Assembly: GCA_030625085.1 (NCBI GenBank)
Contig: DAOURK010000030.1
Span: forward strand, 1 to 38,269
Direction of reading: 5' to 3'
Origin: Pseudomonadota bacterium
GTDB taxonomy: Bacteria > SZUA-182 > DTGQ01
Length of the DNA: 38,269 nucleotides
Shown here: one piece after another, positions 11,372 through 37,825 of the stretch
Position numbering within the stretch: the stretch's first letter is position 1
Layout: each line of letters opens with the position of its first letter
Made by a program: the position numbers and the translations under genes
Notes under the pieces: model-generated
Seen by the model: the letters and a program-made list of their open reading frames with translations, nothing else
What the model was told of the DNA's origin: nothing
Database searches by the model: none

Positions 11372-12532
11372 CTATTCCCTTTCCAGGAAGAGGCCTAACA
11401 ATTCCCTGATGACCCCTTCTCCACCTTTTGATTTCGTCACATACTTTGCAATCTTTCTAACTTCTTCGCAAGCATCGGAGGGAGCAATAGGACATGCAAT
11501 AAATTTCATAGCTTCATAATCATTGATATCATTGCCCACGTAAATTACTTCTTCTGCTTTTATCCTCTTAGATTTAAGATAACTCTCAAGAAAATCTTTT
11601 TTATTTTTAATTCCAGAGGAACACTCAATTCCTAATTTTTTAGCCCTTTTTTGGACAATTGGATTTTGTTCTGTTGAGAGTACAATTTGACGAATACCCA
11701 CTTTTTTTATTTTAGAAATCGCCAGCCCATCAGAGCGGTGCACCCAAACACTTTCCTTGCCAAATTGATCCATTAAAACTTTATTATCAGTTAAAACACC
11801 ATCAAAATCATATATAAATAATTTGATATTTTTTATATTCAATTTTTCTTTGTTAAGCAAATACTTCGCAAATAGCACCTCTGCCAAATTAAAGTCAAAT
11901 TCGTCATCAATATCAATGTGTTGCCAATCTTTCATTATATGAAAAGAAATTTTGCCCTCTAAACGGTTGTTGTAACTTGTTAAAATATGTGGTTTAAATA
12001 TGTATATTGAACCATTTTCAAAATAGATTTTTTCTAAATCCTGCCGTCTCTTTCGATTTTTAAAATCATAACTAATTGAAGTCATTCGGTCATTTATATT
12101 TTTCCAAATAAATTTTCTAGTCTCTGATACTGAAAGAAGAGAATCGGCATTCTCTTTTAAGAATTTTTGAATGGCATTATCGATGTCATTAGGCAGCCTT
12201 AATGGTGAAGTGCATTGAAGGAAGACGATAAAATCAGGCACATAATTTTCGGACTGTTGCAAATACTCCAGGGCATGTAATAGGGCCGATTCAGATGAAG
12301 CATTATCACCGCTGAGTTCTGAAGGCCGCCAGATGACTTCTGCGCCATACTGTTTAGAAACAGCAGCTATTTCGGGATCATCGGTTGAAACTATGATGCG
12401 GCCCAGCATGCGTGCATGGCCAGCATGCTCAATGGTGTGTGCGATCAGTGGCTTGCCTGCCAGTTGCCTTATGTTCTTACGCGGAATACCTTTGGAACCG
12501 CCACGGGCAGGGATGATTGCAAGATTTTTCAT
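11372..12532 (-). CDS. NeuA-type CMP-sugar cytidylyltransferase fused to KdsC-like HAD phosphatase
   Basis: A 386-residue two-domain protein. Residues 1-230 are an acylneuraminate cytidylyltransferase: IIPARGGSKGIPRKNI at the N-terminus binds CTP, and FLQCTSPLRLPNDID and HIDIDDEFDFNLAE complete the family pattern. Residues about 235-386 are a KdsC-type HAD phosphatase: YDFDGVLTDN near 241-250 holds the nucleophile and acid aspartates, STEQNP is motif II, the lysine of GIKNKKDFL is motif III, and VGNDINDYEAM is motif IV. Together they would dephosphorylate an ulosonate 9- or 8-phosphate and couple it to CMP. Fusions of this order are known in sialic and legionaminic acid loci. It pairs with the NeuB-like synthase at 8584-9465. 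A purine-rich AAGGGA lies rather far (15 bases) from the start. Confidence 0.93.
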   Translation of the reverse strand: MKNLAIIPARGGSKGIPRKNIRQLAGKPLIAHTIEHAGHARMLGRIIVSTDDPEIAAVSKQYGAEVIWRPSELSGDNASSESALLHALEYLQQSENYVPDFIVFLQCTSPLRLPNDIDNAIQKFLKENADSLLSVSETRKFIWKNINDRMTSISYDFKNRKRRQDLEKIYFENGSIYIFKPHILTSYNNRLEGKISFHIMKDWQHIDIDDEFDFNLAEVLFAKYLLNKEKLNIKNIKLFIYDFDGVLTDNKVLMDQFGKESVWVHRSDGLAISKIKKVGIRQIVLSTEQNPIVQKRAKKLGIECSSGIKNKKDFLESYLKSKRIKAEEVIYVGNDINDYEAMKFIACPIAPSDACEEVRKIAKYVTKSKGGEGVIRELLGLFLERE

Positions 12533-17966: not shown

Positions 17967-18689
17967 CTAATGGGCAATGAACCACCAATAATCCCCTTTA
18001 TATCCGACTTCTTTAAAAAGTTTTTTCCAATCATCAACATGCATATAGGTTAAAGCAGTTATGTTCCATTTTAACATACGCTCACGTTCTTCATCATTGC
18101 GCCAGGCATGTACTGAAATAAAAGAATGTTTTTTCTTTACTCGTTCAATTTCACGCAAAGCTTGCTTACATTCTTCCAAAGGAAGATAATCAACAGTATT
18201 AATCGAAATTACCAATTCAAAAAATCTGTCTGGATAAGGTAGAATTTTAGCATTTCCCACTGTGATAAAAGGCTTTATTTCCTCCATCGCTTGCTCATAT
18301 GCATATTGCGAAATATCAATCCCAGCAACGTTGATATTGGGTATTAATTTTTTAAAATCATATAACATAAATCCTTTCGCACAGCCAATATCTAATACTG
18401 CCGTATCTTCTTTAAGTTTATAATAACCTCCAAAACGTCTAACTGTGTCAGTCCAGAAACGTGAATCATAATAATAGCCGCCGTACCCATACAAACGGTC
18501 CCCATCAAAATATTCTTTTCCAAATTGTCGCGCTCTTTCCAATAATTTATATTCTATTAAAATATCAGCATTATCTCTTTGTTCACGATCAAGCGAAATC
18601 CACCCCACCCCCGCTAATTTTCGTTTTCCCCGTTCCTCAAGCGGCCTTTTCGAAGAAGGGTACAAATCAAGTAAATTTATTTCTGCCAT
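17967..18689 (-). CDS. SAM-dependent methyltransferase, paralog of the gene at 29254-29916
   Basis: A 240-residue class I methyltransferase. Motif I is AVLDIGCAKGFMLYDF, followed by VAGIDISQYAYEQAMEEIKP, ILPYPDRFFELVISINTVDY and REIERVKKKHSFISVHAWRN. The same landmarks recur in the same order in the protein at 29254-29916, including the pre-domain GDR-GYGG-YD signature, so the two are clear paralogs. The N-terminus here is about 25 residues longer. Substrate is unknown; a nucleotide sugar or a carboxylate of a sugar acid is plausible. It is the last intact gene of the aldolase operon (spacing 14 bp from the TPP enzyme), followed by the dehydrogenase remnant. Confidence 0.85.
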   Translation of the reverse strand: MAEINLLDLYPSSKRPLEERGKRKLAGVGWISLDREQRDNADILIEYKLLERARQFGKEYFDGDRLYGYGGYYYDSRFWTDTVRRFGGYYKLKEDTAVLDIGCAKGFMLYDFKKLIPNINVAGIDISQYAYEQAMEEIKPFITVGNAKILPYPDRFFELVISINTVDYLPLEECKQALREIERVKKKHSFISVHAWRNDEERERMLKWNITALTYMHVDDWKKLFKEVGYKGDYWWFIAH

Positions 18690-18703
18690 ATAAATTATTC
18701 CTT

Positions 18704-20515
18704 TTATTTAGATTCAGATAATGGCTCCACTACCATATTTTCTATAAACTCTTCGCGGGTTAAATAAGGATATAAATCCTCCAAGGGCCTGGCAGAAGAG
18801 GTCGTCCCATCAGCATTCTCTTTAAATCCCAAACACGGAATAACTTCCTGTTTTCCGGATATCATAATTTCACACAAAACCGGCCCATTTGCTGCCAAAA
18901 CATTAGGGAGCACTTCCATTAATTTATCATGATTTTGAACCCTAAAAGTATCTATACCATATGCTCCCGCTACTTTTAAGAAATCAGGCAAACTTAAACC
19001 GCCAGTCTCATTTGCCCCTGCATAACGACTATTGAGAAAACCATCTTGAGTATGTCGAATGGCGAGGTAACCACCGTTGTTAAAAACAAAAATTTTTATA
19101 GGAGCATGGTGATGAACAATCGTTTGCAACTCTTGAATATTTAATTGCATACTGCCATCGCCACAAAGACAAATAGTGCGTTTCTTCCCACTACCAAAAT
19201 ACACTCCTATGCTCTCCGGTAGCCCCGTTCCCATAGCGCAAATCCCTGTAGAAAGAATTAACCTCTGGCCTAATTTTATTTTGAATGCCTGAAAAGAGAT
19301 GTAGACAACAGTCCCTCCACCATCAACTACAACGTTATCTTCAGTGTTCAAAGAATTGGAAAGTAAATCAAGAAAATAATAAGGATTCACAAATTTTTTT
19401 TGATTTTTGCATTCGCTAGGAAGGCCATTATATATCTTATATTTTTTACATTTTTCTTTCCAAAGACTAATGTCTATTGAAGCATACTCAACTGTATACT
19501 TCAGTAACTTTTTTAAAAAAATCCCAGCATCACACGAAACAGCTAAGTCTACACGTACTGTAGGGTTGTCTAATTCGGCTTTATCTATATCAACCACGAT
19601 CCTTTTTGCATCCCTGGCAAAAGTATCGTATCTGGTCCCCGTGAGTTGGACGCTTAAATGTGAACCAATTGCAAGAATAAGATCCGCATTCTGCATCGCA
19701 AAATTGGCGCCACGCTGACCTGCTAAACCTGGCCTACCAACATAATGGATATTGTCGGCAGCACAGAAATCACTTGCGCCCCAACTAGAAAGAAAAGGAA
19801 TACTAAATTTTTCAATCAGTGCTCTAAAAACATCCTCCGCCTGTGCTAACCTTATTCCAAATCCTGCGAGAATAATAGGCCGTTTAGCCTTCCTTAATAA
19901 TTCATAACTCTGCTTTACCCAGCATTCAATTTGTATCCCTGAAGAAAACTGTTTTACTAATTCAGAGCTATCAAACTCAGGCAAATTATCAGGATTTATC
20001 TGAGCCCACTGAAAATTCAAAGGAATATCTATCCAAACCGGCCCTGGTCTATCGGCCTTTGCAAGATAAGCCGCTTTTTGAAGATGGTACTTAATCATTT
20101 GAGGGTCATCAATCATAACAGCATATTTAGTAATGGGCTTAACCAAAGGAATAATTTCTAAATGCTGAGTTCCTATTTGCCGGATAGGCTTTCCCCGTGC
20201 AGTATGTTCCAACCTAGTTTGGCCAGAAATATAAATACAAGGTACAGAATCTAACCAGGCAGCTGCAACCCCGGTAATAGCATTCGTCACCCCAGGACCA
20301 GTGGTAAAAAAAGCTGCTCCTAAACCCTGGGTAATTTTAGCATAAGCCTCTGCAGCTAATGCTGCCGCTTGTTCATGGTGGTTAAAAATTGGTTTGATGC
20401 CCGGCAGACGATCGACAGAATCAAATAAATGTACCGCTGCTCCTCCAGTTAAGCCAAATACATGCTGGATTCCTTGGCTTAATAAAAACTCCGCCACAAA
20501 ATCAGTTAACTTCAT
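18704..20515 (-). CDS. Acetolactate-synthase-like thiamine pyrophosphate enzyme
   Basis: A 603-residue ThDP-dependent enzyme with the three-domain pyruvate-oxidase/acetolactate-synthase layout. The N-terminal domain has the cofactor-activating glutamate in FNHHEQAAALAAEAYAK (about E48) and GPGVTNAITGVAAAW. The central domain follows. The C-terminal domain has the ThDP/Mg motif GDGSMQLNIQELQTI ending in NNGGY. It probably decarboxylates pyruvate or another 2-oxo acid and transfers the resulting acyl unit. In sugar loci such enzymes (YerE in yersiniose synthesis) attach a two-carbon acetyl branch to a keto-sugar. A separate IlvH regulatory subunit is absent, which argues against ordinary isoleucine/valine synthesis. 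Its neighbours include a C-methyltransferase and two pyruvate-type aldolases. Confidence 0.9.
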   Translation of the reverse strand: MKLTDFVAEFLLSQGIQHVFGLTGGAAVHLFDSVDRLPGIKPIFNHHEQAAALAAEAYAKITQGLGAAFFTTGPGVTNAITGVAAAWLDSVPCIYISGQTRLEHTARGKPIRQIGTQHLEIIPLVKPITKYAVMIDDPQMIKYHLQKAAYLAKADRPGPVWIDIPLNFQWAQINPDNLPEFDSSELVKQFSSGIQIECWVKQSYELLRKAKRPIILAGFGIRLAQAEDVFRALIEKFSIPFLSSWGASDFCAADNIHYVGRPGLAGQRGANFAMQNADLILAIGSHLSVQLTGTRYDTFARDAKRIVVDIDKAELDNPTVRVDLAVSCDAGIFLKKLLKYTVEYASIDISLWKEKCKKYKIYNGLPSECKNQKKFVNPYYFLDLLSNSLNTEDNVVVDGGGTVVYISFQAFKIKLGQRLILSTGICAMGTGLPESIGVYFGSGKKRTICLCGDGSMQLNIQELQTIVHHHAPIKIFVFNNGGYLAIRHTQDGFLNSRYAGANETGGLSLPDFLKVAGAYGIDTFRVQNHDKLMEVLPNVLAANGPVLCEIMISGKQEVIPCLGFKENADGTTSSARPLEDLYPYLTREEFIENMVVEPLSESK

Positions 20516-20565
20516 AAAACCAGCTCCCCCAAATTAACTACAAAACCCCTTTCATGCACCTTGCC

Positions 20566-21795
20566 CTAGATAGTATTTAAAGGAAGTATCACTTGCTTAG
20601 GATTCATTTTAAATAATTTTGGCAACATACGGCGCACATTATTCATAGTTGAAATTGCAGTTATCAAAACTATAGACTTATTAATATCCTTAATTTTTTC
20701 ACAAGTTCTAATATTAACTGGAAGATTAATGTAAAATAACCCTTCCTTATTTTTATCATCATCAATTACACATTCTAAACAAGAGAGTTCATTTCCAAGA
20801 TGGTAACAGAGTACAGGCAACATCAATGCAGCGCCATATCCATAAATTTTCTCTCCCTTTAATAAACGCAAACTCTTATTAGTACACTCAATATTGCTCT
20901 TAAAAACCGCATACTTTTGAAGAATATCTGCCTCAGAAATATTTAGCACTTCTTTTCTGTACCTGGAATTACCTTTTCCTTTTTTAAAGGCAATCAAAAT
21001 AGCACCCCAATGATTCACATTTATACGATAATCAAGTAACTCACAATCGATTTCATCTAATAAATAAATAATCGACTTAAGAGAAAAATAGTTTAAATGT
21101 TGATGATAAATCTGGTCAAAGCGGCAACCTCCCAATAAGGATTCTAAGAAGGGAAATTGAAAAAAATACATTGTGCCTTTATGCCCAAAATTCACTATTT
21201 TTTCCATAAATTTTTTCGGATTACTGACATGTTCTAAAGTGTCCTTGGAAATTACTAAATCCACTTCACCATCTAAAGAAATGTTTTCAAAAAAATCACC
21301 TATAGCAGTAAGATTATCTTCTGAGAACTCTTTTTCTTTACCCTTTAAAATTGGATCTATACCAATAAGTTTGTCTCCCTTGCCTTTTAATTGCTTAAGT
21401 AAATACATGTCGTTACAACCTAATTCTACTATTTGCCCAAAGCTTCTATCCTTAACCACATCATTTAAGAAATCCACAAAGAAATCCGCAGATTCTCTAC
21501 CGGTTGCGCTCTCAGAGGACCTGAAATGATAAAAAATAGAACTTCCATACTGAAGATCTACATCAATTACATTTTGTATCTGTCCATGACCACATTTTTT
21601 GCACAAATGGAACGTTTGATCAACAAAACCGACTTTTTCTTCTACTTTTTTTCCAATATAAATTTCGGTCATTGGAAAATCGGGCAACTCAATCACTGGG
21701 GTGCATAATTTTTTTCCGCAAACCATACACTCGGTGCGTTCTTTAAATAGGATATTCTTAAATTTGTTAATATCTATATGAACCTTCTTATCCAT
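20566..21795 (-). CDS. Sugar C-methyltransferase with zinc-ribbon N-terminus
   Basis: A 409-residue protein with the three-part architecture of C-methyltransferases acting on keto-sugar nucleotides (NovU/TylC3 type). The N-terminal zinc ribbon has CMVC near residue 24 and CKKC about 45 residues later, with PVIELPDFPMTE between. The SAM domain has IVELGCNDMYLLKQL and GIDPI, then LVISKDTLEHVSNPKKF. The C-terminal domain has IYGYGAALMLPVLCYHL and CVIDDDKNKEG, like the family's Methyltransf_14 region. It should add a methyl group to a ring carbon next to a ketone, giving a branched sugar. The start overlaps the upstream HpcH-type gene by 8 bp, so they are co-translated. The exact carbon is unknown. 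Confidence 0.9.
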   Translation of the reverse strand: MDKKVHIDINKFKNILFKERTECMVCGKKLCTPVIELPDFPMTEIYIGKKVEEKVGFVDQTFHLCKKCGHGQIQNVIDVDLQYGSSIFYHFRSSESATGRESADFFVDFLNDVVKDRSFGQIVELGCNDMYLLKQLKGKGDKLIGIDPILKGKEKEFSEDNLTAIGDFFENISLDGEVDLVISKDTLEHVSNPKKFMEKIVNFGHKGTMYFFQFPFLESLLGGCRFDQIYHQHLNYFSLKSIIYLLDEIDCELLDYRINVNHWGAILIAFKKGKGNSRYRKEVLNISEADILQKYAVFKSNIECTNKSLRLLKGEKIYGYGAALMLPVLCYHLGNELSCLECVIDDDKNKEGLFYINLPVNIRTCEKIKDINKSIVLITAISTMNNVRRMLPKLFKMNPKQVILPLNTI

Positions 21796-22564
21796 TTAAG
21801 CTCTTAAAACAAATATCAATCTGTCTATAAGCATCTCTTAATATATGGCAGTCTACAGAATAAGTGATATATCTGATTCCATAATCCACAAATTGCTTCA
21901 TTTTTTCCGGATCATTTACAATCGTCCCAGTATATTTGCCAACATTATTCACTTTCTCCACTACTTTCTTTAATAATTTAATAACCTTAGGATTATTCAC
22001 TTCTCCCGGAAGCCCCAAGGATTTAGAAATATCAAAGAGGCCGACAAAAACAACATCAATTTCTTTGATAACCAAAATTTCTTCGATATTTTCAATTGCC
22101 TCTTTTCCTTCCATATGAATAACTAATAAGGTGGAATCATTGGCTGTTTTTGTTAGGATCTGCGCATTCTCAAGAGAATAACATCCCGCACGATTAAAAG
22201 GAGAAAACCCCCTATTCCCAATTGGTGGATATTTCATAAAACGAATAGACATCTCAATTTGCTGTTTTGATGTAATATTGGGAATATGCAAACCATGGAC
22301 TCCAATATCTAAAGCCTTCAAAATATCAGATTCAACAACCCCTGAAACACGCAGGATAGGTGAAACGCCATGGAGCTCACAAGCTATGGCCATATTCTGT
22401 GCAGTTTCATAATTGATTGGGCCATGTTCAGAATCAATAATAATAAAATCCAGACCACTGCTTGCAATCACTTCTGCAACCACTGGAGAAGGGATAACTG
22501 CCCACGTCCCAAGTACTATTTTTCCAGCTTTTAATTTATTTTGCAGAAAATTTTCTCTTAGCAT
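21788..22564 (-). CDS. HpcH/HpaI-family pyruvate aldolase
   Basis: A 258-residue metal-dependent class II aldolase. Conserved features are LGTWAVIPSPVVAEVIASSG, IDSEHGPINYE with the catalytic histidine, the arginine of PILRVSG, the metal-binding Glu of HMEGKEAIENIEEI and the metal-binding Asp of VVFVGLFDISKSLG. The family reversibly joins pyruvate or a related 2-oxo acid to an aldehyde, giving 4-hydroxy-2-oxo acids; known members act on oxoheptanedioate, rhamnonate and sugar acids. It overlaps both neighbours by 7-8 bp, so it belongs in the same operon as the 4-hydroxy-2-oxovalerate aldolase. Two different pyruvate aldolases side by side in a glycan locus are unusual. Biosynthetic direction is inference. 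Confidence 0.92.
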   Translation of the reverse strand: MLRENFLQNKLKAGKIVLGTWAVIPSPVVAEVIASSGLDFIIIDSEHGPINYETAQNMAIACELHGVSPILRVSGVVESDILKALDIGVHGLHIPNITSKQQIEMSIRFMKYPPIGNRGFSPFNRAGCYSLENAQILTKTANDSTLLVIHMEGKEAIENIEEILVIKEIDVVFVGLFDISKSLGLPGEVNNPKVIKLLKKVVEKVNNVGKYTGTIVNDPEKMKQFVDYGIRYITYSVDCHILRDAYRQIDICFKSLNG

Positions 22565-23583
22565 TTTTTCTCCACTGCTATCCTCTTGTCCGCTAAATTC
22601 ACAGCCACCTCAACAATTAGGTCTTCTTGTCCGGCAACAGCCTTCCTTCGACCCAACTCAAAAAACACATCTCGCGAATCGATCCCATACTGTAGAGAAA
22701 TTCTTTCAACGTGCTTCGCAAAGCCTGAAAACACCCCTGCTAGCCCACTAACAATACTGATTGGCTTAATATTTGGAATAACTTTAATTAATTCCTTTTC
22801 CGCCACATCAGAAGCATCTAACATCTTATACAGATCTATTCCGGTTGTGTAACCCATTTTTTCTAAAACTGCAACAAGCACTTCAATTTGAGCATTTCCT
22901 GCCCCCGCACCAAATCCGCGTGCACAAGCATCTAAAATTGTTGCTCCAGCTTCTACTGCCAGGATAGAATTAGTAATTGCCATTCCTAAATTATTATGGC
23001 CATGAAAGCCAACCGGTATTTTTAACTCAGTAACCAAGAATGTAATCTTTTCTATTACGTCTTTAGGCAAGTATGCTCCGGCGGAATCCATTAATATGAT
23101 GCCGTTAGCTCCAAAAGATTGCATTTTCAAACTTTCTTCTAGGAGAATTTCCTTAGAAACCATATGGGTCATCATGAGATTACCATAAACCTCTTTTTCT
23201 CTTTCACTGACATATTCAATATGCCTTTGGGTTATATCTGCTTCAGTGCAATGAGAAGAAACACATACCACTTCCACCCCAGCATTAATAGCATTTTTTA
23301 AATTTTTCTTGATCGTACCAAAACCAGGCAAAATAAAAACTCCTAGCTTCGATTTTTTTAATTTCGCTCTAGCTGTTTCTATCATTTCCATATCATTGAT
23401 AAGGCTTTCTCCTACTTGTAAGGAAGAGGCCCCTAATCCGTTACCGTGCCCCACCACTACAATGGGTATTTCCGCCGTATCTGCCGCCGCTGCATAAACC
23501 GCTATTTGTTTATTATTCAATTCATGATGCACAGCGTGATTGCCGTCTCTCAAGGTAGAGTCAAAAATCAATATATTAGACAT
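22558..23583 (-). CDS. mhpE: 4-hydroxy-2-oxovalerate aldolase-like enzyme
   Basis: A 341-residue DmpG/MhpE-type aldolase, close to the usual 340-350. The N-terminal DSTLRDGNHAVHHELN carries the metal-binding Asp, active-site Arg12 and His16; GFHGHNNLGMAITNS carries the two metal-binding histidines. GAGAGNAQIEVLVAVL and a C-terminal helical communication domain follow. In aromatic catabolism this enzyme splits 4-hydroxy-2-oxovalerate into pyruvate and acetaldehyde and channels the aldehyde to its partner. The partner gene (acylating acetaldehyde dehydrogenase) is directly upstream with an 8-bp overlap. No other meta-cleavage genes are nearby; everything around is glycan biosynthesis. The pair may therefore run in reverse, or on a different aldehyde. 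Confidence 0.93.
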   Translation of the reverse strand: MSNILIFDSTLRDGNHAVHHELNNKQIAVYAAAADTAEIPIVVVGHGNGLGASSLQVGESLINDMEMIETARAKLKKSKLGVFILPGFGTIKKNLKNAINAGVEVVCVSSHCTEADITQRHIEYVSEREKEVYGNLMMTHMVSKEILLEESLKMQSFGANGIILMDSAGAYLPKDVIEKITFLVTELKIPVGFHGHNNLGMAITNSILAVEAGATILDACARGFGAGAGNAQIEVLVAVLEKMGYTTGIDLYKMLDASDVAEKELIKVIPNIKPISIVSGLAGVFSGFAKHVERISLQYGIDSRDVFFELGRRKAVAGQEDLIVEVAVNLADKRIAVEKKC

Positions 23584-24514
23584 ATTCTATTTCTTTGTTT
23601 GGGTTATCAGAAACGAGCATAAGATTCTTTGCATATTCCTCTGCCGTAACTATTGCCGCGCAATTAATAATATCCAGATTACCAGCATAACTGGGAAGAT
23701 AATCACCTAATCCCTTTACTCTTACCATTATTACAATCCGATTATTCTCATAAACCGGAGGAACAACAATTTCATATCCTGGCACATACAATCGTATCTT
23801 ATTTATTATTTCAGCAATTGCTTCTTTTACTTTCTCCATGTTAGGATTTTTTACCTTTGCTGAAACAGTTGTTTGCATATCAATACAAGGTTGCGCTGGA
23901 TTCAGAATCAAAATAACCTTCACCTTTTTACAACCGGAAAATAATTTGAGGCCTTCTTCGGTATTATCAATATATTCATCAATGTTAATACGTGTGCCAG
24001 GGCCAGCACTACGTGAAGAGATACTAGAAACCACTTCAATATACTCGATTTCTCTTTCTATTTGCGTAAGTGTATGAGCTAAAGGAATTGAAGCTTGCCC
24101 ACCACAACTAATCATATTTAGATTCCTGAATTCCTTAATATTATTGATATTATCTTTAAGGCTAATAGCAGGCACTACCATTTGCCCTATTTTAGAGGGA
24201 GTCATGTCAATAACCATTTTCCCTAACATATCTAATAGAGGCCAATGATAAACATGATCGCTGGCTGAGGTGGCATCAAAAATGAGATCACAATCCTCAG
24301 GGTTATTAAGGATCTCTTGAATACCCTGGGCTGAAACTTCTGCCCCTAGGCTCTTTGCCTTTTCCATACCAGGGGAATTTAACCTGCGACCGATAAAGTG
24401 GGTACAGGATAAAAGGGGAGAACGCTGTATCTTAACTAAAAGATCAGTCCCGATATTTCCGCTGCCTAATATAGCTACCTTTAATCTTTTAAAAATTTGT
24501 TTACTGCCTGTCAT
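23576..24514 (-). CDS. mhpF: Acylating acetaldehyde dehydrogenase
   Basis: A 312-residue NAD- and CoA-dependent dehydrogenase of the DmpF/MhpF family, of usual length. The N-terminal VAILGSGNIGTDLL binds NAD. The catalytic cysteine is C137 in NMISCGGQASIPLAH, and SSRSAGPGTRINIDEYIDNT is the long family signature. It interconverts acetaldehyde plus CoA with acetyl-CoA, working as a channelling complex with the aldolase encoded next. The gene begins the six-gene operon running to 17967, after an AT-rich gap that may hold its promoter. The start has AAGGATAAAGAG upstream. In this context it could supply an aldehyde (acetyl-CoA to acetaldehyde) for carbon-chain building rather than remove it. Confidence 0.93.
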   Translation of the reverse strand: MTGSKQIFKRLKVAILGSGNIGTDLLVKIQRSPLLSCTHFIGRRLNSPGMEKAKSLGAEVSAQGIQEILNNPEDCDLIFDATSASDHVYHWPLLDMLGKMVIDMTPSKIGQMVVPAISLKDNINNIKEFRNLNMISCGGQASIPLAHTLTQIEREIEYIEVVSSISSRSAGPGTRINIDEYIDNTEEGLKLFSGCKKVKVILILNPAQPCIDMQTTVSAKVKNPNMEKVKEAIAEIINKIRLYVPGYEIVVPPVYENNRIVIMVRVKGLGDYLPSYAGNLDIINCAAIVTAEEYAKNLMLVSDNPNKEIEYV

Positions 24515-24835: not shown

Positions 24836-25633
24836 TTAATTTCCCACCCCATTAACATGTACATAATGTTTAGCCTGTCCGGCATCAACAAGAGCTATAG
24901 TGCCCTGACAAAAACTAGCCAATTGTGAACAAAGCAATAATGCCATTGGACTCATTTCAGATGGCTTCCCAAATCTTGCGGCAGGGCATCTTTCTTTTAA
25001 ATATTTTTCAGCATGTTTAGGGTTTTCTTTTAAAACTGTTTCCCAATGTCCACCTTCAGTTAGTATAACTCCAGGTAATAATGCAGACATAATTACATTT
25101 TTAGTTTCTATAGCTAAAATTCTTCCCATACAACGGGTGTAGGCAGTAAGTGCCGCTTTAATTGAACAATAAGATACAGGCCCACTATTTTCCATTGAAG
25201 CTCCAGCAGAAATATTCAAAATCCGGCCCCAATCCTGTTTTTTCATATGAGGAATAAAAAAATTATTTAACTCTATAGCTACTTCTAAATTAAGCCTAAA
25301 TACTTTTCTCCAATCTGATATTGAACAGTAAGGGTCCATTATTTTAAGAGTACCTCCAATATTATTTACCACAATATCAAGATCCCCAAAAAAAATTTTA
25401 ATCTCTTCTGCTAATGCTTTAGGTGCACTATCATCAGTTAGATTGGCAACTATTGCATAATGACCCGCTTTTTTCCCTCCCATCATTTCCAAAGTCTTAT
25501 TTAATAGATCTTCATTTCTTGAGGTAATAATTACACTAGCACCTTCCTTAGCGAAATCAAGCGCAATAGCGCGGCCTATTCCTACTGCCCCTCCGGTAAT
25601 TAATGCCTTTTTACCTTTTATCCCTAAATCCAT
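24836..25633 (-). CDS. Classical SDR oxidoreductase (FabG-like)
   Basis: A 265-residue classical SDR. Motifs are ALITGGAVGIGRAIALDFAK for cofactor binding, VVNNIGG, the serine in LNISAGAS, the YxxxK in YCSIKAALTAYTRC and a C-terminal substrate loop with LLPGVILTEGGHWE. AGGAGG lies at ideal spacing before the ATG. The fold fits NAD(P)H-dependent interconversion of a hydroxyl and a ketone. The extended substrate loop after PGVI differs from fatty-acid FabG enzymes. The gene sits between a sugar O-methyltransferase and the gap before the aldolase operon. It may reduce a 2-oxo or keto-sugar product of that operon, but the substrate is not visible in the sequence. Confidence 0.88.
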   Translation of the reverse strand: MDLGIKGKKALITGGAVGIGRAIALDFAKEGASVIITSRNEDLLNKTLEMMGGKKAGHYAIVANLTDDSAPKALAEEIKIFFGDLDIVVNNIGGTLKIMDPYCSISDWRKVFRLNLEVAIELNNFFIPHMKKQDWGRILNISAGASMENSGPVSYCSIKAALTAYTRCMGRILAIETKNVIMSALLPGVILTEGGHWETVLKENPKHAEKYLKERCPAARFGKPSEMSPMALLLCSQLASFCQGTIALVDAGQAKHYVHVNGVGN

Positions 25634-29918: not shown

Positions 29919-30845
29919 TTATACTCCAATTAGTGAATTTGCTAAAGAAACAACCTTATCTGTTGTTATTCCATAATATTGCAAATTACTTGCTTGTGAC
30001 CCATATTGTGATGGAAAAACATCTGGCAAGGCAACTCTAGCAAACTTTATAGCAGGTACAAAACAAGCCTCTGCAATAATTTCCGCCACGCAACTCCCCA
30101 GCCCACCGATTAAAGTATGTTCTTCCAAAGTTATCACAGCGTTAACTTTACAAGCTGCCTTTATAATTGCATTTTTATCAATTGGTTTTATAGTATGAAT
30201 ATGAAGCACTCCTGTTTTTATTCCTTTTTTTTCTAATAGGATTGAAGCATCTAGCGCCATTTTAAGAACAATACCTGTGGTGACAATTAAAACGTCATCT
30301 CCTTCGCGCATTAGTATTGCTTTGCCTATTTCAAATGGATTATCTGATGAACTTACAATCGGATCGCCACCTTTACCCAAACGGATATAAATAGGGCCAT
30401 TATAATCAACGGATTGCGGCATAAGCCGCTTCATTTCTTCAGCATCACATGGAGCAACAATTGTCATATTCGGTACCGCTCTCATAATGGCAATATCTTC
30501 AAAAGCAAGGTGCGTTGCTCCAAGTGGGGAATAAACCACCCCCCCACCGCTGCCTACAATACGAATCTTTAAATTATGCATAGCCACATCTAGTAAAAGT
30601 TGCTCATAACATCTTCGTGTTAAAAAAACAGCAATCGTATTTAAATAAGGGATTTTTCCATTCATGGCAAGCCCGGCCATTATTCCGATAATATTTGCCT
30701 CTGAAACCCCTTCCATGAAATAACGGCTTGGCATTTCTTTCTGAAACTCAGATAATGTCCCAACACCAATATCCGACCCCAAAAATAATATTCGCTTATC
30801 TTGCTTCGCGAGGTTGTAAATTTCATTTAAGCAAGTTTTTCTCAT
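29919..30845 (-). CDS. Transketolase C-terminal subunit
   Basis: A 308-residue protein matching the pyrimidine-binding and C-terminal domains of transketolase, encoded as a separate subunit. MEGVSEANIIGIMAGLAMNG carries the ThDP-activating glutamate. THLAFEDIAIMRAVPNMTIV and GPIYIRLGKGGDPIV follow, and the C-terminal Rossmann-like domain has VLIVTTGIVLKMALDAS. With the N-terminal subunit encoded just upstream (sharing one base, TAATG) it forms a full ThDP enzyme that moves a two-carbon ketol unit between sugars or from an alpha-keto acid. Split transketolases are frequent in secondary metabolism and glycan loci. Here it may build a branched or elongated sugar, or supply heptose precursor. Confidence 0.92.
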   Translation of the reverse strand: MRKTCLNEIYNLAKQDKRILFLGSDIGVGTLSEFQKEMPSRYFMEGVSEANIIGIMAGLAMNGKIPYLNTIAVFLTRRCYEQLLLDVAMHNLKIRIVGSGGGVVYSPLGATHLAFEDIAIMRAVPNMTIVAPCDAEEMKRLMPQSVDYNGPIYIRLGKGGDPIVSSSDNPFEIGKAILMREGDDVLIVTTGIVLKMALDASILLEKKGIKTGVLHIHTIKPIDKNAIIKAACKVNAVITLEEHTLIGGLGSCVAEIIAEACFVPAIKFARVALPDVFPSQYGSQASNLQYYGITTDKVVSLANSLIGV

Positions 30846-31648
30846 TATAATGATTCTAATTCTCTAAACAATTTTTGTATTTCTGTATCAGAAATTTTAC
30901 TTTTATGATGCCATAATGCATTTTGCTCAATAGAAGGAATACCCTTGCCTTTAACAGTGTGACAAATAATCAAATTAGGCTTTTCATTTTCGAATGGTAA
31001 CCTATTTAATATCGACCCAAGAGCGGCAACATCATGGCCATCAACTTCTCTAACTGCAAACCCAAAACTAATCCATTTATCGACAAATGGCTCAAGATTT
31101 TGTACATCATATATATTACCGAAACATTGCATTTTATTGTAATCAACGAGTGCCGTTAGATATTCCAATTTATATTTACTTGCGCACATTGCTGCTTCCC
31201 AAATAGAACCTTCATTGCATTCGCCATCGCCAAGAAGGACAAAAGTCCTATAATTTTTTGCATCAAGCTTCGCATTCAATGCAATACCAATCGCTATAGA
31301 TAGGCCATGGCCAAGTGAACCAGTAGAAGCCTCAATCCCAGGCGCTTTGCCATATTGAGGATGCCCCCCCAGCATAGCGCCTAGCTTACAAAAACGGGCT
31401 AATTCATTTTTTTCAAAAAAACCTTTTTTAGCTAAGGCCACATATAAGGCTAAACATCCATGCCCCTTACTTAAAATAAATCGATCCCGGTCTTCCCACA
31501 AAGGTTTTTTTGGATTAATCCGCAATATATCTTCATAAAGCACGCGTATAATTTCAACAATTGACAATGCTGATCCAATATGCCCCCTACGCGCATGATC
31601 TACAATTTTTAAAATTTCTTTACGGTATCCAATAGAACAAATATCCAT
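30845..31648 (-). CDS. Transketolase N-terminal subunit
   Basis: This is the diphosphate-binding half of a split transketolase, 267 residues from the ATG at 31648. Motifs include FILSKGHGCLALYVALAKKG, GGHPQYGKAPGIEASTGSLG and the ThDP/Mg motif GDGECNEGSIWEA ending in DYNKMQ. The ORF can be read from a TTG at 31669, which would overlap the kinase gene; the ATG avoids that and lies about 12 bases after GGAAGGA. The stop and the start of the C-terminal subunit share one base, so the two subunits are translated together. It should transfer a glycolaldehyde unit. Nothing in the cluster looks like pentose phosphate metabolism, so a dedicated sugar-building role is likely. Confidence 0.9.
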   Translation of the reverse strand: MDICSIGYRKEILKIVDHARRGHIGSALSIVEIIRVLYEDILRINPKKPLWEDRDRFILSKGHGCLALYVALAKKGFFEKNELARFCKLGAMLGGHPQYGKAPGIEASTGSLGHGLSIAIGIALNAKLDAKNYRTFVLLGDGECNEGSIWEAAMCASKYKLEYLTALVDYNKMQCFGNIYDVQNLEPFVDKWISFGFAVREVDGHDVAALGSILNRLPFENEKPNLIICHTVKGKGIPSIEQNALWHHKSKISDTEIQKLFRELESL

Positions 31649-31650
31649 TT

Positions 31651-32739
31651 TCAATGAAATTCCTTCCAATTTAAGTAAATAGGAAATGCACCTATTTCAT
31701 ATTCATATTTTGCTTTCTTAAACTTGTTTTTTGCTTTTTCAAGTTGTTTTAAAATCTTTAATCTCTCAATTTCTGTATTGCCACTAAAAGTAATAAATAC
31801 ATTTAACATTATAAGGCACCATTTTAATGATAAAAGTAAATAAATATATGGCAATCTTTTTTTTAATTTAATATCGTTTCCTAAATATCGACATACTCTT
31901 TCTAAAAATATTTTTCGATACTTATATGGCAAGGGTATTGCCGGCTGTAAATAATAATCGCAAATCAGTTTTGCAGGGTCATCCCAGCCATAATACTCGA
32001 AATCAATAAAAAATAATATTCCGTCATTCGTTTTAATTGCATTATGAAATCCGAAATCTGAAGGGCTTAATATTTTCTCGTGTTTACCTAATTCCATATC
32101 AATATCAACACCCTTTTTTTGCGCTTGTCCTTTTACCGAATGTTTTACTTCTCTAAATAGATGTATAAATTCATTGTCAAGAAAATTATGTAGCAGTTCG
32201 AATACGTCATTTTTTTTTGTTATTTTTTTTAGATTTTTCAGCCGACGGTCAATGCAATCAATATACGCCTTGATACTGAAACAAGCTTCTGAGGCAACCG
32301 GTTGTTTATTAGCATCCTCCACATTAATTAAAGCGTGCATGCTACCTAAAAAATTTGCTGCCAAATAAATATCATTAAATTTTATCTCTTCAGGATTAAG
32401 TTTTTTGCCATCGATAAATCGGTATATCCCAATATTGTAATTTTTATTAAGATATATTGGTTCAGGGATAAAACGAACACCATTATTCCATAAAAAAGAG
32501 ATTCCAAAATATTCGGTTGATAAGCGATCCCGATTGTCACCTTCACGAACAAGATATTTTTTTGCGAGGTAACTATAATTATTAGTTGTCATAACCTTAT
32601 AAACGATACTATTTGCACCACCTGGCAACTGTTCTATGGAAGACAATTTTTCTATGAACTCTTCGACGAATAGCTCAAATATTACTTTTTTTGTATCTTT
32701 ATCGGTATAATGATTTAATAAAATATTTTTTGATTTCAT
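31651..32739 (-). CDS. APH-fold small-molecule kinase
   Basis: A 362-residue protein of the aminoglycoside phosphotransferase/choline kinase fold. The N-lobe has LPGGANSIVYKVMTTNNYS and the lysine in YLAKKYL. The catalytic loop is SPSDFGFHNAIK, a DxxxxN variant of the usual HxDxxxxN in which serine-asparagine neighbours replace the histidine, followed by the metal-binding FIDFEYYGWDDPAKL. The acceptor is presumably a sugar or polyol of this locus. It overlaps the HAD gene by 41 bp, and AAGG lies eight bases before the ATG, which supports the overlapping start. A kinase coupled to a HAD phosphatase suggests a phosphorylated intermediate that is made and later cleared, but this is inference. 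Confidence 0.8.
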   Translation of the reverse strand: MKSKNILLNHYTDKDTKKVIFELFVEEFIEKLSSIEQLPGGANSIVYKVMTTNNYSYLAKKYLVREGDNRDRLSTEYFGISFLWNNGVRFIPEPIYLNKNYNIGIYRFIDGKKLNPEEIKFNDIYLAANFLGSMHALINVEDANKQPVASEACFSIKAYIDCIDRRLKNLKKITKKNDVFELLHNFLDNEFIHLFREVKHSVKGQAQKKGVDIDMELGKHEKILSPSDFGFHNAIKTNDGILFFIDFEYYGWDDPAKLICDYYLQPAIPLPYKYRKIFLERVCRYLGNDIKLKKRLPYIYLLLSLKWCLIMLNVFITFSGNTEIERLKILKQLEKAKNKFKKAKYEYEIGAFPIYLNWKEFH

Positions 32740-33549: not shown

Positions 33550-33618
33550 TCATTTCTTGTTTTTCAGTTTTCTGGGATGACAGGCTTCGATAACATCCTT
33601 AATCCCCTCAAAGGCGCT
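33550..33618 (-). pseudogene. Remnant of another SDR C-terminus overlapping the end of wzt
   Basis: Read in a different frame from wzt, 22 codons end at a TGA at 33550: GIKDVIEACHPRKLKNKK. The intact SDR at 35813-36751 has GIKDVIKAFQSAKLKDEDG at the corresponding place. The DNA also matches: 33582-33608 and 35884-35910 share AGGCTT and ATAACATCCTTAAT with few mismatches. No other part of that SDR is present here. Confidence 0.6.
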
Positions 33619-34891
33619 TTACATCTTGAAAAGGGCGGCAAAAATCTGTCTTCCAGTCCAGGCGTGGGCGAACTACACCAAGCCAGCCCCCCATAAATTC
33701 TTTGCGCATAGCCCCTGTATCATGTACAGTAAAAGTTAGCACTTGTTCTGCAAAAGCTTGTGTATCGGATACGCCGATACCGATAATTGCATTGATTTTA
33801 TATTGTCCCTCGTTTAAAAAATTACCAGGCAACACGCATGTAGATCTAAATAAACCTGGCGGATGAGGTCGCCCATACCAACCATCATCTGCCAAACATA
33901 CTGAACTGACATTTGATGATGCCAACACGCCAACCCCCATTTTGTCAAGGAGAATAATACCTGAATAGATGAAAGCCCCTGCCTTCAAATTCCAAAATTC
34001 CATCTCTATATTTACATCTTTTTGAATATCAACATCTTCAGTTATCTCTCCATCAGATATAATACGAACGGCCTGCAGTCTGACAATATCATTCCCCGGC
34101 GCTGTTTCCTGATTGTGCCACACTTGTTCACCCTTAAATTCATTACCCACAGAAAGGTAAGTTTCTATAACCTTATTTGTTGGCCCATCGTGTTCGTTTT
34201 TTCCATTAACTAATAAAATGGTACGTTTGCACAGGTTTGAGATAGCCGCCATATTATGACTAATAAACAACACTGTCCGCCCTTCCTTCGCTACATCTCC
34301 CATCGTTCCCAGACACTTTTTTTGAAAAGAGATATCCCCCACGGCCAGCACTTCATCCACCAGCAGGATTTCCGGCTCCAGGTGGGCGGCCACGGCAAAG
34401 GCCAGGCGCACATACATGCCGCTGGAGTATCGTTTTACAGGCGTATCAATAAACTTTTCAATCTCGGCAAAGGCTACAATCTCGTCAAACTTGCGGACAA
34501 TCTCTGTTCTTTTCATACCCAAGATGCTGCCATTCAGGTGAATGTTTTCCCGCCCGGTAAGTTCGGGATGAAAGCCGGTGCCTACCTCCAAAAGTGATGC
34601 CACTCTGCCATCAATCCGGGCTTTTCCTTTAGTCGGTCTGGTTATGCGCGACAGTATTTTAAGCAGGGTGCTCTTACCCGCGCCATTGCGGCCGATAATG
34701 CCAACCACTTCACCCTGCTTCACCTCAAATGAAATATCCTTCAAAGCCCAGAGTGTCTCATTTTTCTTTTTTTCTTCTCTATTTTTAAAAAAATTTGTCA
34801 CCTTATCACGGAATGAATTGCTCTGCTTGTGAAGTTCGCCAAGGTGATAGAGTTTGGAAAGGTCTTTGACTTTGATAACTGTTTTGGACAT
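33608..34891 (-). CDS. wzt: Wzt: ATPase of polysaccharide ABC exporter with carbohydrate-binding C-terminus
   Basis: A 427-residue ABC ATPase that powers export of a finished polysaccharide across the inner membrane. Walker A is GRNGAGKST at residues 67-75; the signature block is [20 protein letters not shown], with Walker [12 protein letters not shown] and the H-loop FISHNMAA. Residues 19-45 hold the charged insertion typical of O-antigen exporters. The region after about 245 is a beta-rich domain like the Wzt C-terminal domain that binds the modified non-reducing end of its own glycan, so the O-antigen probably has a specific terminal modification (methyl or phosphate). It ends in [11 protein letters not shown], as usual. 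It lies 65 bp after wzm. Confidence 0.95.
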
Positions 34892-34956
34892 AGTTAAATT
34901 TGCATTATTAGTCTGATTAATTTTATTTTATTCTATTCAATTCTATTATCTTTACG

Positions 34957-35778
34957 TTAAATAATGTCTGCAAACTCACTTTCAAATCTCCTGAAATAGA
35001 AGAGGCCTGCTAAAAGGACAACAAGAGAAAAAAGCCCTGTTATCAAAATCTTAAGCCAATCCATTTCACCTACCCCCAAAAGGGACCAGCGAAAGCCCTG
35101 GATGATCCAGGTCATGGGATTCAGGTAAAATATCCATAACCACTTTTGAGGAATGTTTTCCATGCCATAGGCCACCGGAGTGATCCAAAACCAGATAGAA
35201 ATCATGAAAGACAGGGCATAGGTCAGGTCACGATATTTTACAACGATAGCTGAAAAAATCAGCCCGATGCCAAAAGTAATGCCAAGTCCAAGGAGAAGAA
35301 AAAGTGGGAAAAACAGGATCTGAAGACCGGGTGAAATTCCGTATACCAGCATTAGTATTACCAAAACGGCAAACGAGATAAAAAAATCTATCCCCCCGCG
35401 ACCTAAAGCTGACAAGGGAACCACCAGACGCGGGAAATAAACTTTGGTGATAAGGCCGCTGTTGCCCACAATGCTGCCTGTGGAACTGCTGAGGCTCCTG
35501 GAAAAAAAACCCCAGGCCATGATCCCGCAAAAGGTAAATAAGGGGTAGGGTAGCCCGCTGCTGGAAAGTTTGGCCACATTACCGAATATGAAAGTGTAGA
35601 TAAGTGCCTGCGATATTGGTTTGACTATGGCCCAGGCTATACCAAAGACGGCTTGTTTGTATTGAGCTAAGACATCCCGCCAGGCAAGAAAACCTATAAG
35701 CTCCCTGTATTCATATATCTCCTTAAAATTAATTCCAAGCCAGCCTTTTTGTGCCTCTATGAGGATTTGGTTTGACAT
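34957..35778 (-). CDS. wzm: Wzm: permease of polysaccharide ABC exporter
   Basis: A 273-residue ABC-2-type integral membrane protein. FLAWRDVLAQYKQAVFGIAWAI is split here into FLAWRDVLAQYKQAV and FGIAWAIVKP, the entry to the first helix. At least six hydrophobic segments follow, including ALIYTFIFG, FFISFAVLVILMLVYG, ILFFPLFLLLGLGITFGIGL and ILITGLFSLVVLLAGLFYF. The intervening KVYFPRLVVPLSAL and VVKYRDLTYAL loops are family markers of coupling helices. It forms a dimer that carries the undecaprenol-linked polysaccharide, partnered by Wzt encoded next. The presence of Wzm/Wzt means the glycan is completed in the cytoplasm and Wzx/Wzy are not required, in line with their absence here. Confidence 0.95.
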   Translation of the reverse strand: MSNQILIEAQKGWLGINFKEIYEYRELIGFLAWRDVLAQYKQAVFGIAWAIVKPISQALIYTFIFGNVAKLSSSGLPYPLFTFCGIMAWGFFSRSLSSSTGSIVGNSGLITKVYFPRLVVPLSALGRGGIDFFISFAVLVILMLVYGISPGLQILFFPLFLLLGLGITFGIGLIFSAIVVKYRDLTYALSFMISIWFWITPVAYGMENIPQKWLWIFYLNPMTWIIQGFRWSLLGVGEMDWLKILITGLFSLVVLLAGLFYFRRFESEFADII

Positions 35779-35812: not shown

Positions 35813-36751
35813 TCATATACGCATTTTTTTCATGGTTTTTATGTTGTAACAGCCGTCTTCGTCTTTTAGTTTTGCGGATTGAAAGGCTTTAATAACATCC
35901 TTAATGCCGTTAACAACACCATGCTTTGGTTGAAACCCCGTGTTCAGCAGCTTATCCGAGTTCAGGCGATAAGAGCGAGGATCATTGGATTCGGCTATGA
36001 CCATTTGGGCTGAAACAAATTCCGTTACCTTTTTGGCAATGTGTTTGATCGACATGTTTTCAAAGCCGGCATTGTAAATACCCGGAGATTTTTCTCCCTG
36101 CTTGAGCAAATGAATAAATACGTCCGTGATATCCTGAATATGAATATTAGGACGAGTTTGCTCTCCGCCAAAAACGGTGATTTTCTTTTTACTCAAGGCT
36201 TGCATGGTTAACATATTGACGGAAAGATCCAGGCGCATCCGGGGAGAGTACCCACAGACCGTTGCCGGCCGGACACACTGCACCAGGATGGAATCTTTAT
36301 AGCTTAAGAGCACGCGCTCACTGATCATTTTGGTTTTATTGTAATCTGAAATCGGCAACAATGGCAGATCTTCGGTAACTTCCTGCTCCTCTTTTATCCC
36401 GTATACACTGCCGGAGCTGGCGTAAATAAATTGTTTTACTTTATGGCGTATGGCCCGCTCAGCCAGTTGCATGGTAGCCAAAACGTTTACTTCCCATGAG
36501 AGTTTCGCATTCAGCTCGCCGCATGGGTCATTGGAGATATTGGCCAAATGAATGACTGCATCAACGCCCCCCATGGGGATGTTATCAGTATGCCGAATAT
36601 CCTGCCGGATTACTCTTAAGGCTTGGTGTCGGGGAAGATAATTCCCGAACCACATAATATCCACTACAGTAACCCGCGCTCCCAGATCAAGCAATTTCGG
36701 GGTTAAAACCGAGCCTACGTAGCCACAACCGCCTGTTAATAAAATGTTCAT
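35813..36751 (-). CDS. NAD-dependent sugar epimerase/dehydratase (extended SDR)
   Basis: From the ATG at 36751 the protein has 312 residues and begins exactly at the cofactor motif, MNILLTGGCGYVGSVLTPKL; an alternative GTG at 36796 adds 15 residues with no homology. VIHLANISNDPCGELN, IYASSGSVYG and the catalytic YNKTK follow, then VRPATVCGYSPRMRLDL. The enzyme probably acts at C4 or C2 of a GDP- or UDP-sugar. It sits between another SDR and wzm, next to the heptose isomerase gene, so GDP-heptose is a reasonable substrate but not shown. A fragment of its 3' end recurs beyond wzt at 33550-33618. Confidence 0.9.
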   Translation of the reverse strand: MNILLTGGCGYVGSVLTPKLLDLGARVTVVDIMWFGNYLPRHQALRVIRQDIRHTDNIPMGGVDAVIHLANISNDPCGELNAKLSWEVNVLATMQLAERAIRHKVKQFIYASSGSVYGIKEEQEVTEDLPLLPISDYNKTKMISERVLLSYKDSILVQCVRPATVCGYSPRMRLDLSVNMLTMQALSKKKITVFGGEQTRPNIHIQDITDVFIHLLKQGEKSPGIYNAGFENMSIKHIAKKVTEFVSAQMVIAESNDPRSYRLNSDKLLNTGFQPKHGVVNGIKDVIKAFQSAKLKDEDGCYNIKTMKKMRI

Positions 36752-36835
36752 AGAAGTTTTGGGTATGAAATTAAATTCACCCCCACCTAACCTCACTCAT
36801 CAAGTGGGAGGGTATAAGGAGTGGGATTTTCTTAT

Positions 36836-37825
36836 TTAAGGCTTGTGTATATAATCAAGGGGCTGTTTTTTAAGTTCTTCCAGATTATCTTTAACCCACA
36901 TGATGGTTTCTTCAATTCCTTGTTCCAAACCGATTTTGTCCTTCCAGTCCAAGGTTTCTCTGGCTTTAGCGCTGTCAAGTAAATAGGCTGCATCCTTTCC
37001 GCGGCGCTCTTCAGTTACCATAACACTATCCTCGAAAGATATCTTCATCTGCTCAGCAATCATTTGGACAATCGCCCTAATAGATATATTTTTTGATGTG
37101 GAAAAATGAAAGATTTCCCCTGCTGATGCTGTGCGGGCAACCATTAAGGTCCCATCCGCCACATCTTTAATATGAATAAAGGAGCGAACAGAATTGCCTC
37201 CGCCATGTAAGTATAACTTTTTTCCAATCAAAAAATAAAGAATTGTTCTGGGAATTATTCGATAAAGCTGCTGGCCGGGTCCATAAACATTGGCCGCCCT
37301 GGTGAAGTCCACCGGAAAGTTATAGGCATGGTAAAAACTCATTAAACTCATATCTGCGGCCGCGCGCGAAACAGCGTATGGCGTGCCGGGATTATAAGAT
37401 GTATTTTCCCGTATTAATCCTTCACAAGATCCATAGACCTCGGGAGTAGAAATATGAACATATTTGTTTAAGAAATCACATTTACGAAGCTGATCGTGAA
37501 GTTTGACTGTAGCCGTTACATTCGTTTGGAACCAATGTTCCGGATATTGCCAGCTTTCGGCCACCATAGCTTGTGCCGCGAAGTTTACTACATAATCCGG
37601 CCGGAAAGCACGGATAATTTCTATGATCTTATCCTGATCGTGATTTAAATCCAATCGGTGAAATGTAAAGGCCGGGCTCTGTTGTTTTTTGTAGGGGAGA
37701 AATACCGGATTCGGCTCACAAGACCGGCTGATGCCAATAACCTCTGCGCCTTCCCTGAGGGCAAAATCAATAAAGCTTGCCCCTGAGAAAGAGTTGCTCC
37801 CAATTACAGCAATCTTTTCACTCAC
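36836..37825 (-). CDS. Sugar-nucleotide dehydratase-like SDR with altered active site
   Basis: A 329-residue extended SDR related to RmlB and GDP-mannose dehydratases. The cofactor loop is GSNSFSGASF, where the middle glycine of GxxGxxG is a serine. YVHISTPEVYGS stands in the place of RmlB's TDE motif: the Asp is Pro (P128), while Glu is kept (E129). The catalytic YxxxK appears as YAVSR, with Arg154 for Lys. RAANVYGPGQQLYRIIPR and LHGGGNSVRSFIHIKDVADG are otherwise standard. It starts with GTG at 37825 inside a tandem-repeat array that provides a GGGG box. It may be an unusual epimerase or reductase, or inactive as a dehydratase. It is next to the GmhA-like gene. Confidence 0.85.
   Translation of the reverse strand: MSEKIAVIGSNSFSGASFIDFALREGAEVIGISRSCEPNPVFLPYKKQQSPAFTFHRLDLNHDQDKIIEIIRAFRPDYVVNFAAQAMVAESWQYPEHWFQTNVTATVKLHDQLRKCDFLNKYVHISTPEVYGSCEGLIRENTSYNPGTPYAVSRAAADMSLMSFYHAYNFPVDFTRAANVYGPGQQLYRIIPRTILYFLIGKKLYLHGGGNSVRSFIHIKDVADGTLMVARTASAGEIFHFSTSKNISIRAIVQMIAEQMKISFEDSVMVTEERRGKDAAYLLDSAKARETLDWKDKIGLEQGIEETIMWVKDNLEELKKQPLDYIHKP

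Follow-up and report, generated by a model that had tools for sequence, protein, structure and literature searches.

The window analysed here is one entire contig (DAOURK010000030.1) of 38,269 bases from the 4.9-Mb genome of a Pseudomonadota bacterium, and family scans of its open reading frames (ORFs) show that it carries a polysaccharide locus. Within this locus lies an operon headed by relatives of DmpF and DmpG, the acylating acetaldehyde dehydrogenase and 4-hydroxy-2-oxovalerate aldolase of a textbook catabolic complex. Judged from its genes, the operon probably builds a short carbon branch and attaches it to a nucleotide-activated sugar for a surface polysaccharide, a reading given a probability of roughly 0.68. 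The preliminary description of the window had proposed a biosynthetic role of this kind, leading from acetyl-CoA through acetaldehyde and an aldol addition to a keto-sugar, and the proposal gains support from the clade and neighbourhood of the pair and from the donors used by the carboligases ErwE and JanthE. The genes assigned to the module are as follows:

24836..25633, minus strand: short-chain dehydrogenase/reductase (SDR; PF13561/PF00106)
23576..24514, minus strand: dmpF-like acylating acetaldehyde dehydrogenase, acetyl-CoA to acetaldehyde (TIGR03215 and PDB matches)
22558..23583, minus strand: dmpG-like 4-hydroxy-2-oxovalerate aldolase of a putative biosynthetic branch (TIGR03217, DmpG_comm, 1nvm, trees and residues)
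21788..22564, minus strand: HpcH/HpaI-family aldolase (PF03328)
20566..21795, minus strand: sugar C-methyltransferase-like protein with zinc-binding, S-adenosylmethionine (SAM) and C-terminal domains (PF08421, PF13489, PF08484)
18704..20515, minus strand: YerE/JanthE-like carboligase dependent on thiamine diphosphate (ThDP), with a GDG motif (8rph match and tree)
17967..18689, minus strand: class I SAM methyltransferase (Pfam methyltransferase domains)

The six genes between 17967 and 24514 are all present on the minus strand, overlapping or tightly spaced in the order first described. DmpF and DmpG overlap by 8 bases, DmpG and HpcH by 7, and HpcH and the C-methyltransferase by 8; gaps of 50 and 14 bases then precede the ThDP gene and the methyltransferase. 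Three consecutive pyruvate-using enzymes had also been claimed; all three are present, but the C-methyltransferase sits between the HpcH and ThDP genes. By gene order, the SDR gene, 321 bases upstream of the six, belongs to the module as well, because an SDR homologue sits inside two homologous operons, L005 from Omnitrophota and L010 from Opitutia, between the DmpG/HpcH and ThDP genes. Promoter and terminator scans yielded matches no more numerous than in shuffles, and an Rfam search returned no match.

A YerE-like carboligase and its possible donors

The ThDP enzyme is predicted from its sequence to be a ketone-accepting, YerE-like carboligase that adds decarboxylated 2-oxo acids. It had initially been called acetolactate-synthase-like, an assignment that structure matches and phylogeny overturn. 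Its closest solved structure is 8rph, at 430 bits, whereas the next, an acetolactate synthase, reaches 258; 8rph is cited in a paper on the engineering of JanthE, and JanthE is a YerE-like carboligase (PMC12188165). In the ThDP tree, the window protein clusters with JanthE and relatives of JanthE, while 13 acetolactate-synthase-like proteins fall elsewhere (branch support 98); with its counterparts from L005 and L010 it forms a sub-clade (support 100). The catalytic-glutamate motif HHEQ at residues 46-49 aligns with HHEQ of JanthE, and the GDG motif reads CLCGDGSMQLN. Among the NCBI equivalog cut-offs shown, the enzyme passes none. Identity as a biosynthetic acetolactate synthase (TIGR00118) was considered and rejected, with 343 bits against a cut-off of 538 and a different position in the tree. 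Two other genes in the host genome, both on contig C119, are acetolactate-synthase-like.

Published work on this enzyme class supplies a link to the aldolase. According to PMC12247030, ErwE uses 4-hydroxy-2-oxopentanoate rather than pyruvate and prefers longer hydroxy acids, which matters here because 4-hydroxy-2-oxopentanoate is the product of DmpG. Erwiniose has ten carbons (PMC8657720), as expected from six plus four. With benzaldehyde as the partner, JanthE takes 4-hydroxy-2-oxovalerate; PMC12188165 states that its physiological substrates are unidentified. YerE itself prefers pyruvate and transfers a two-carbon unit, and the review PMC12247030 describes no aldolase pair for it.

A partnership conserved across genomes

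A scan of 84,980 named genomes with the window DmpG, from which the 80 closest loci were kept, suggests that the pairing of this aldolase with a YerE-like enzyme is not peculiar to the window. A YerE-like gene lies close to dmpF-dmpG in 59 of the 61 non-actinomycete loci; none was seen at L016 or at L049, a locus that reaches a contig edge. The hosts span Omnitrophota, Cyanobacteriota, Bacteroidota, Verrucomicrobiota, Planctomycetota, Bdellovibrionota, Thermodesulfobacteriota, Pseudomonadota, Bacillota and further groups. Of the 61 loci, 47 have a homologue of rfbF nearby, 42 one of rfbG and 48 one of rfbH, and at L015 all three pass curated cut-offs. The enzymes encoded by these three genes lead to cytidine diphosphate (CDP)-4-keto-3,6-dideoxyglucose.

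Since the scan retained nearest matches only, a survey independent of neighbourhood was made in 146 genomes of one family. DmpG copies there fall into two sets: 2 are 76-100% identical to the glycan type, and the other 43 reach no more than 46%. A YerE-like gene lies within 4 kb of both glycan-type copies and of none of the 43 others, a split with a calculated chance of about 1 in 990.

In Rugamonas rivuli (L031, 7226-11005), a homologue 98.5% identical to JanthE is followed immediately by dmpF and dmpG. The conserved dmpF-dmpG neighbours thus point to 4-hydroxy-2-oxovalerate as the natural donor of JanthE and suggest a supply route for the YerE-like group. A search for JanthE-like genes on plasmids found none. 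At three Pseudomonas loci (L047, L053 and L055), two tandem ThDP genes precede dmpF-dmpG, the first of which is not of the JanthE type.

The window DmpF and DmpG

Both members of the pair pass their curated NCBI equivalog cut-offs: DmpG scores 368 bits against 286 for TIGR03217, and DmpF 362 against 282 for TIGR03215. DmpG contains both the HMGL-like domain and the DmpG communication domain (DmpG_comm) and has a solved relative in 1nvm; relatives of DmpF include PDB 7z3s, 4jn6 and chain B of 1nvm, with the catalytic cysteine aligned in a CGGQA motif. The window DmpG is the sole true DmpG of the host genome, other matches being weak and partial at about 30% identity. Among nine genomes of the phylum searched for further copies, only the window's own has one, and therefore the module was probably acquired. 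Family scans of the window revealed no other meta-cleavage genes (dioxygenase, hydrolase or hydratase), in line with the original observation that further catabolic genes are missing.

Phylogeny separates the window aldolase from catabolic copies. The ten catabolic references comprise mhpE of E. coli together with copies carried on plasmids, and most are surrounded by ring-cleavage or related genes. In the full DmpG tree these form one group (support 100), and the window copy groups with those of L010 and L005 (91). A more careful tree of 36 rows recovers the catabolic split at 100/100, and in all bootstrap trees, and supports two small sets holding the window copy at 99/89 and 96/87. The DmpF tree recovers the same catabolic group (100), and window DmpF is not firmly placed among the remaining copies.

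The biosynthetic side of the DmpG tree also takes in actinomycete copies and one from a Phaeobacter plasmid, and this branch thus has uses beyond glycan building. Actinomycete and Phaeobacter DmpFG pairs without a YerE-like partner occur at L058, L064-L073, L075, L077, L079-L084, L126 and L136. At L126, the Phaeobacter plasmid, the pair adjoins ATP-grasp and aminotransferase genes, and at L136 it adjoins genes for a ketoacyl synthase and an acyl carrier protein.

A residue switch in the aldolase pocket

The catalytic residues of the enzymes had been judged intact. For DmpG this holds at the core, where Arg17, Asp18, His21, His200 and His202 are present in the window copy and retained in every copy spanning these positions, but not at positions 88 and 291, which are unlike those of every catabolic copy examined. 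Leu/Tyr occupies these positions in all 38 catabolic-type or low-identity copies checked. Most glycan copies have His/Phe, and the window copy and most actinomycete copies have Phe/Phe.

Positions 88 and 291 appear to correspond to Leu87 and Tyr290 of BphI, with numbering offset by one, as no other small shift would place Tyr at 290 together with Leu at 87 and at 89. According to PMC3962088, Y290F alone abolishes stereochemical control in BphI, and the L87N/Y290F and L87W/Y290F variants (Baker and Seah 2012, cited therein) cleave only 4R 4-hydroxy-2-oxopentanoate, whereas the wild type cleaves only the 4S form. By analogy, the product of the window DmpG is predicted to be 4R 4-hydroxy-2-oxovalerate. 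Erwiniose is 3,6,8-trideoxy-4-C-(R-1-hydroxyethyl)-D-gulo-octose; its C7 would then be R, which fits a 4R donor, as a lead rather than a test. The glycan-type aldolases may thus represent a natural counterpart of the laboratory stereochemistry switch. Two further substitutions were noted in the window DmpG: Val at the position aligned with Glu48, which nearly all relatives keep but L061 and L078 likewise do not, and an exchange of Phe139 for Asn that L005 and L010 share.

Proposed pathway and alternatives

In the proposed pathway, DmpF would reduce acetyl-CoA to acetaldehyde, which DmpG, in complex with DmpF, would join to pyruvate to give 4-hydroxy-2-oxovalerate, probably 4R. The YerE-like enzyme would decarboxylate this acid and transfer the four-carbon unit to a keto group of a nucleoside diphosphate (NDP)-deoxysugar, creating a tertiary alcohol. 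The SDR would then reduce the new ketone, and the two methyltransferases would modify the result further. A longer or different 2-oxo acid may come from HpcH. The assignment of DmpFG as the probable donor maker draws on the acceptance of the DmpG product by ErwE and JanthE and from the JanthE homologue that precedes dmpF-dmpG.

A broader formulation is put forward tentatively, with the odds somewhat against it. It holds that a widespread biosynthetic DmpFG branch with inverted stereochemistry gives (4R)-4-hydroxy-2-oxovalerate to YerE-like carboligases, and that in the window variant the acceptor is not CDP-4-keto-3,6-dideoxyglucose but another sugar, with methylation afterwards yielding an undescribed sugar.

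Several observations weigh against the branch-building reading. All 19 actinomycete loci among the 80 closest lack a nearby YerE-like ThDP gene. Conversely, the survey found six YerE-like genes without an adjacent glycan-type DmpG, and the ThDP enzyme can therefore have other donors. The host genome itself has a second YerE-like gene on contig C95 (L110, 1717-9763), accompanied by rfbG-rfbH-rfbF and a NeuB-cupin fusion and lacking DmpFG. As regards the acceptor, rfbFGH are absent beside the window ThDP gene, with only weak homologues in the window. Finally, the DmpG tree places the window copy outside the catabolic group, but when this copy alone was held with the catabolic ones in an approximately unbiased (AU) test the result was not significant (p 0.147); a position on the stem of the catabolic group already satisfies the constraint, which does not require placement inside it.

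The best-surviving alternative, which is nonetheless unlikely, is that the ThDP enzyme acts as YerE does, with pyruvate as the source of a two-carbon unit for the keto-sugar. DmpFG would then have a role of its own, such as making a 3-hydroxybutyryl-type or keto-acid substituent found elsewhere on the glycan. The pyruvate preference of YerE, the YerE-like genes that occur without DmpFG and the actinomycete pairs that work without a ThDP partner would all suit this arrangement; the close and recurrent linkage of dmpF, dmpG and the ThDP gene across phyla and the preference of ErwE for longer hydroxy acids tell against it. It is quite improbable that the true donor comes from HpcH, which would condense pyruvate with an aldehyde formed from the DmpG product into a longer 2-oxo acid, giving a branch of more than four carbons as in caryophyllose. 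Such a longer branched sugar is known (caryophyllose has twelve carbons by name), and the HpcH gene is near or immediately ahead of the ThDP gene in L005, L011, L024, L027, L034, L048, L056 and L062, but it is missing from L010 and most loci of the same type, and its substrate is unreadable from sequence. That the pair is an ordinary catabolic module lodged by accident in a glycan locus is barely credible: the families and the DmpF-DmpG adjacency are those of mhp and dmp operons, but a neighbourhood devoid of ring-cleavage partners, a separate clade, fixed pocket differences and the recurrent YerE-like partnership led to its rejection.

On this evidence, a textbook catabolic complex apparently serves to build glycans across many phyla, and it is misleading when automatic annotation assigns such genes to aromatic degradation.

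The window variant and its acceptor sugar

On gene content, the window, L005 and L010 represent a rarer variant that brings a reductase and a methyltransferase of its own and lacks adjacent rfbFGH, although L005 and L010 are short contigs in which the absence of rfbFGH is not firm. DmpF, DmpG, the SDR, the ThDP gene and the methyltransferase are common to all three loci; HpcH is shared by the window and L005, and the C-methyltransferase by the window and L010. Homologues of the class I methyltransferase directly follow the ThDP gene in L005 and L010, and the C-methyltransferase homologue adjoins dmpF in L010. Structure matches of the C-methyltransferase include TcaB9 and mycarose 3-C-methyltransferase. 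HpcH matches PF03328 (HpcH_HpaI Pfam family) and is found near DmpFG in 9 of the 80 loci; as HpaI, GarL or RhmA (TIGR02311, TIGR03239, PRK10128) its best score was 153 against 369 bits, and it missed all NCBIfam equivalog cut-offs.

The acceptor could come from elsewhere in the genome, given the rfbF-rfbG pair on contig C121 and the rfbG-rfbH-rfbF set on C95. The NeuB-cupin type seen on C95 recurs about 6 kb from the YerE-like gene of L112 in another genome, and at loci of this kind a phosphoenolpyruvate-dependent synthase may supply the 2-oxo acid donor. Within the window, a 4,6-dehydratase-like gene is a candidate local source of the 4-keto acceptor sugar. The relevant features outside the module are:

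36836..37825, minus strand: NDP-hexose 4,6-dehydratase-like protein (TIGR01181, 202 bits, below the cut-off of 365)
33608-35778: Wzm/Wzt-type transporter genes (profile matches)
Elsewhere in the polysaccharide locus: NeuB-family gene, cytidine monophosphate (CMP)-sugar synthetase, glycosyltransferase, sugar epimerases and methyltransferases (family scans)

The candidacy of 36836-37825 is strengthened by L113, a genome of the same family, in which its orthologue and that of 35813-36796 are near another YerE-like gene. At this locus (L113, 2310-10375), the orthologues of the 35813-37825 genes adjoin E1-alpha/E1-beta dehydrogenase genes, an SDR gene and the YerE-like gene, bringing two ketone-branching ThDP classes together.

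The window also contains a split transketolase at 29919-31669, its N and C halves encoded as two genes. Split transketolases are a proposed keto-sugar-branching class, listed so far from streptomycetes only (PMC12247030); the window may therefore hold two different branching ThDP systems. Two gene fusions were additionally observed, an FkbM methyltransferase with a GFO/IDH/MocA oxidoreductase at 5347-7320 and a CMP-sugar synthetase with a KdsC-type phosphatase at 11372-12532.

Comparison with known systems

The operon had been put forward as an undescribed system. Systems of its general kind are known, for erwiniose and yersiniose; what is new is the link to DmpFG, the set of genes in this variant and the residue switch with its stereochemical prediction. 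No description of the DmpFG partnership, the window gene set or the residue switch was found in the literature consulted, in a search that did not cover the primary discussions of the ErwE and JanthE clusters, and a paper on Mycobacterium marinum lipooligosaccharide makes no mention of an aldolase or dehydrogenase.

Among known systems, erwiniose synthesis in Pectobacterium atrosepticum is similar in that ErwE, a YerE-like enzyme, places a hydroxylated 2-oxo acid chain on a keto-deoxysugar of a surface polysaccharide. Compared with this type, the window lacks rfbFGH and has an SDR, a C-methyltransferase, a methyltransferase and HpcH in the module. YerE, which branches the O-antigen sugar yersiniose in Yersinia pseudotuberculosis, belongs to the same class of ketone-accepting ThDP carboligases. 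JanthE of Janthinobacterium sp. HH01 (PDB 8rph) is the closest solved relative of the window enzyme, at about 37% identity; it differs in having an unusual CDG motif in place of GDG, and its operon type carries the rfbFGH genes that the window is without.

The catabolic DmpFG, MhpEF and BphIJ pairs consist of the same two families, encoded by adjacent genes and sharing the core catalytic residues of the window pair. Unlike them, the window pair lies in a separate clade, has Phe/Phe for Leu88/Tyr291 and no aromatic-degradation neighbours, and presumably works in the opposite direction. The BphI L87N/Y290F and L87W/Y290F variants come closest to its pocket: at the same two positions, natural glycan-type aldolases likewise carry a polar or bulky residue together with Phe, although the engineered combinations are Asn/Phe and Trp/Phe and the natural ones His/Phe and Phe/Phe.

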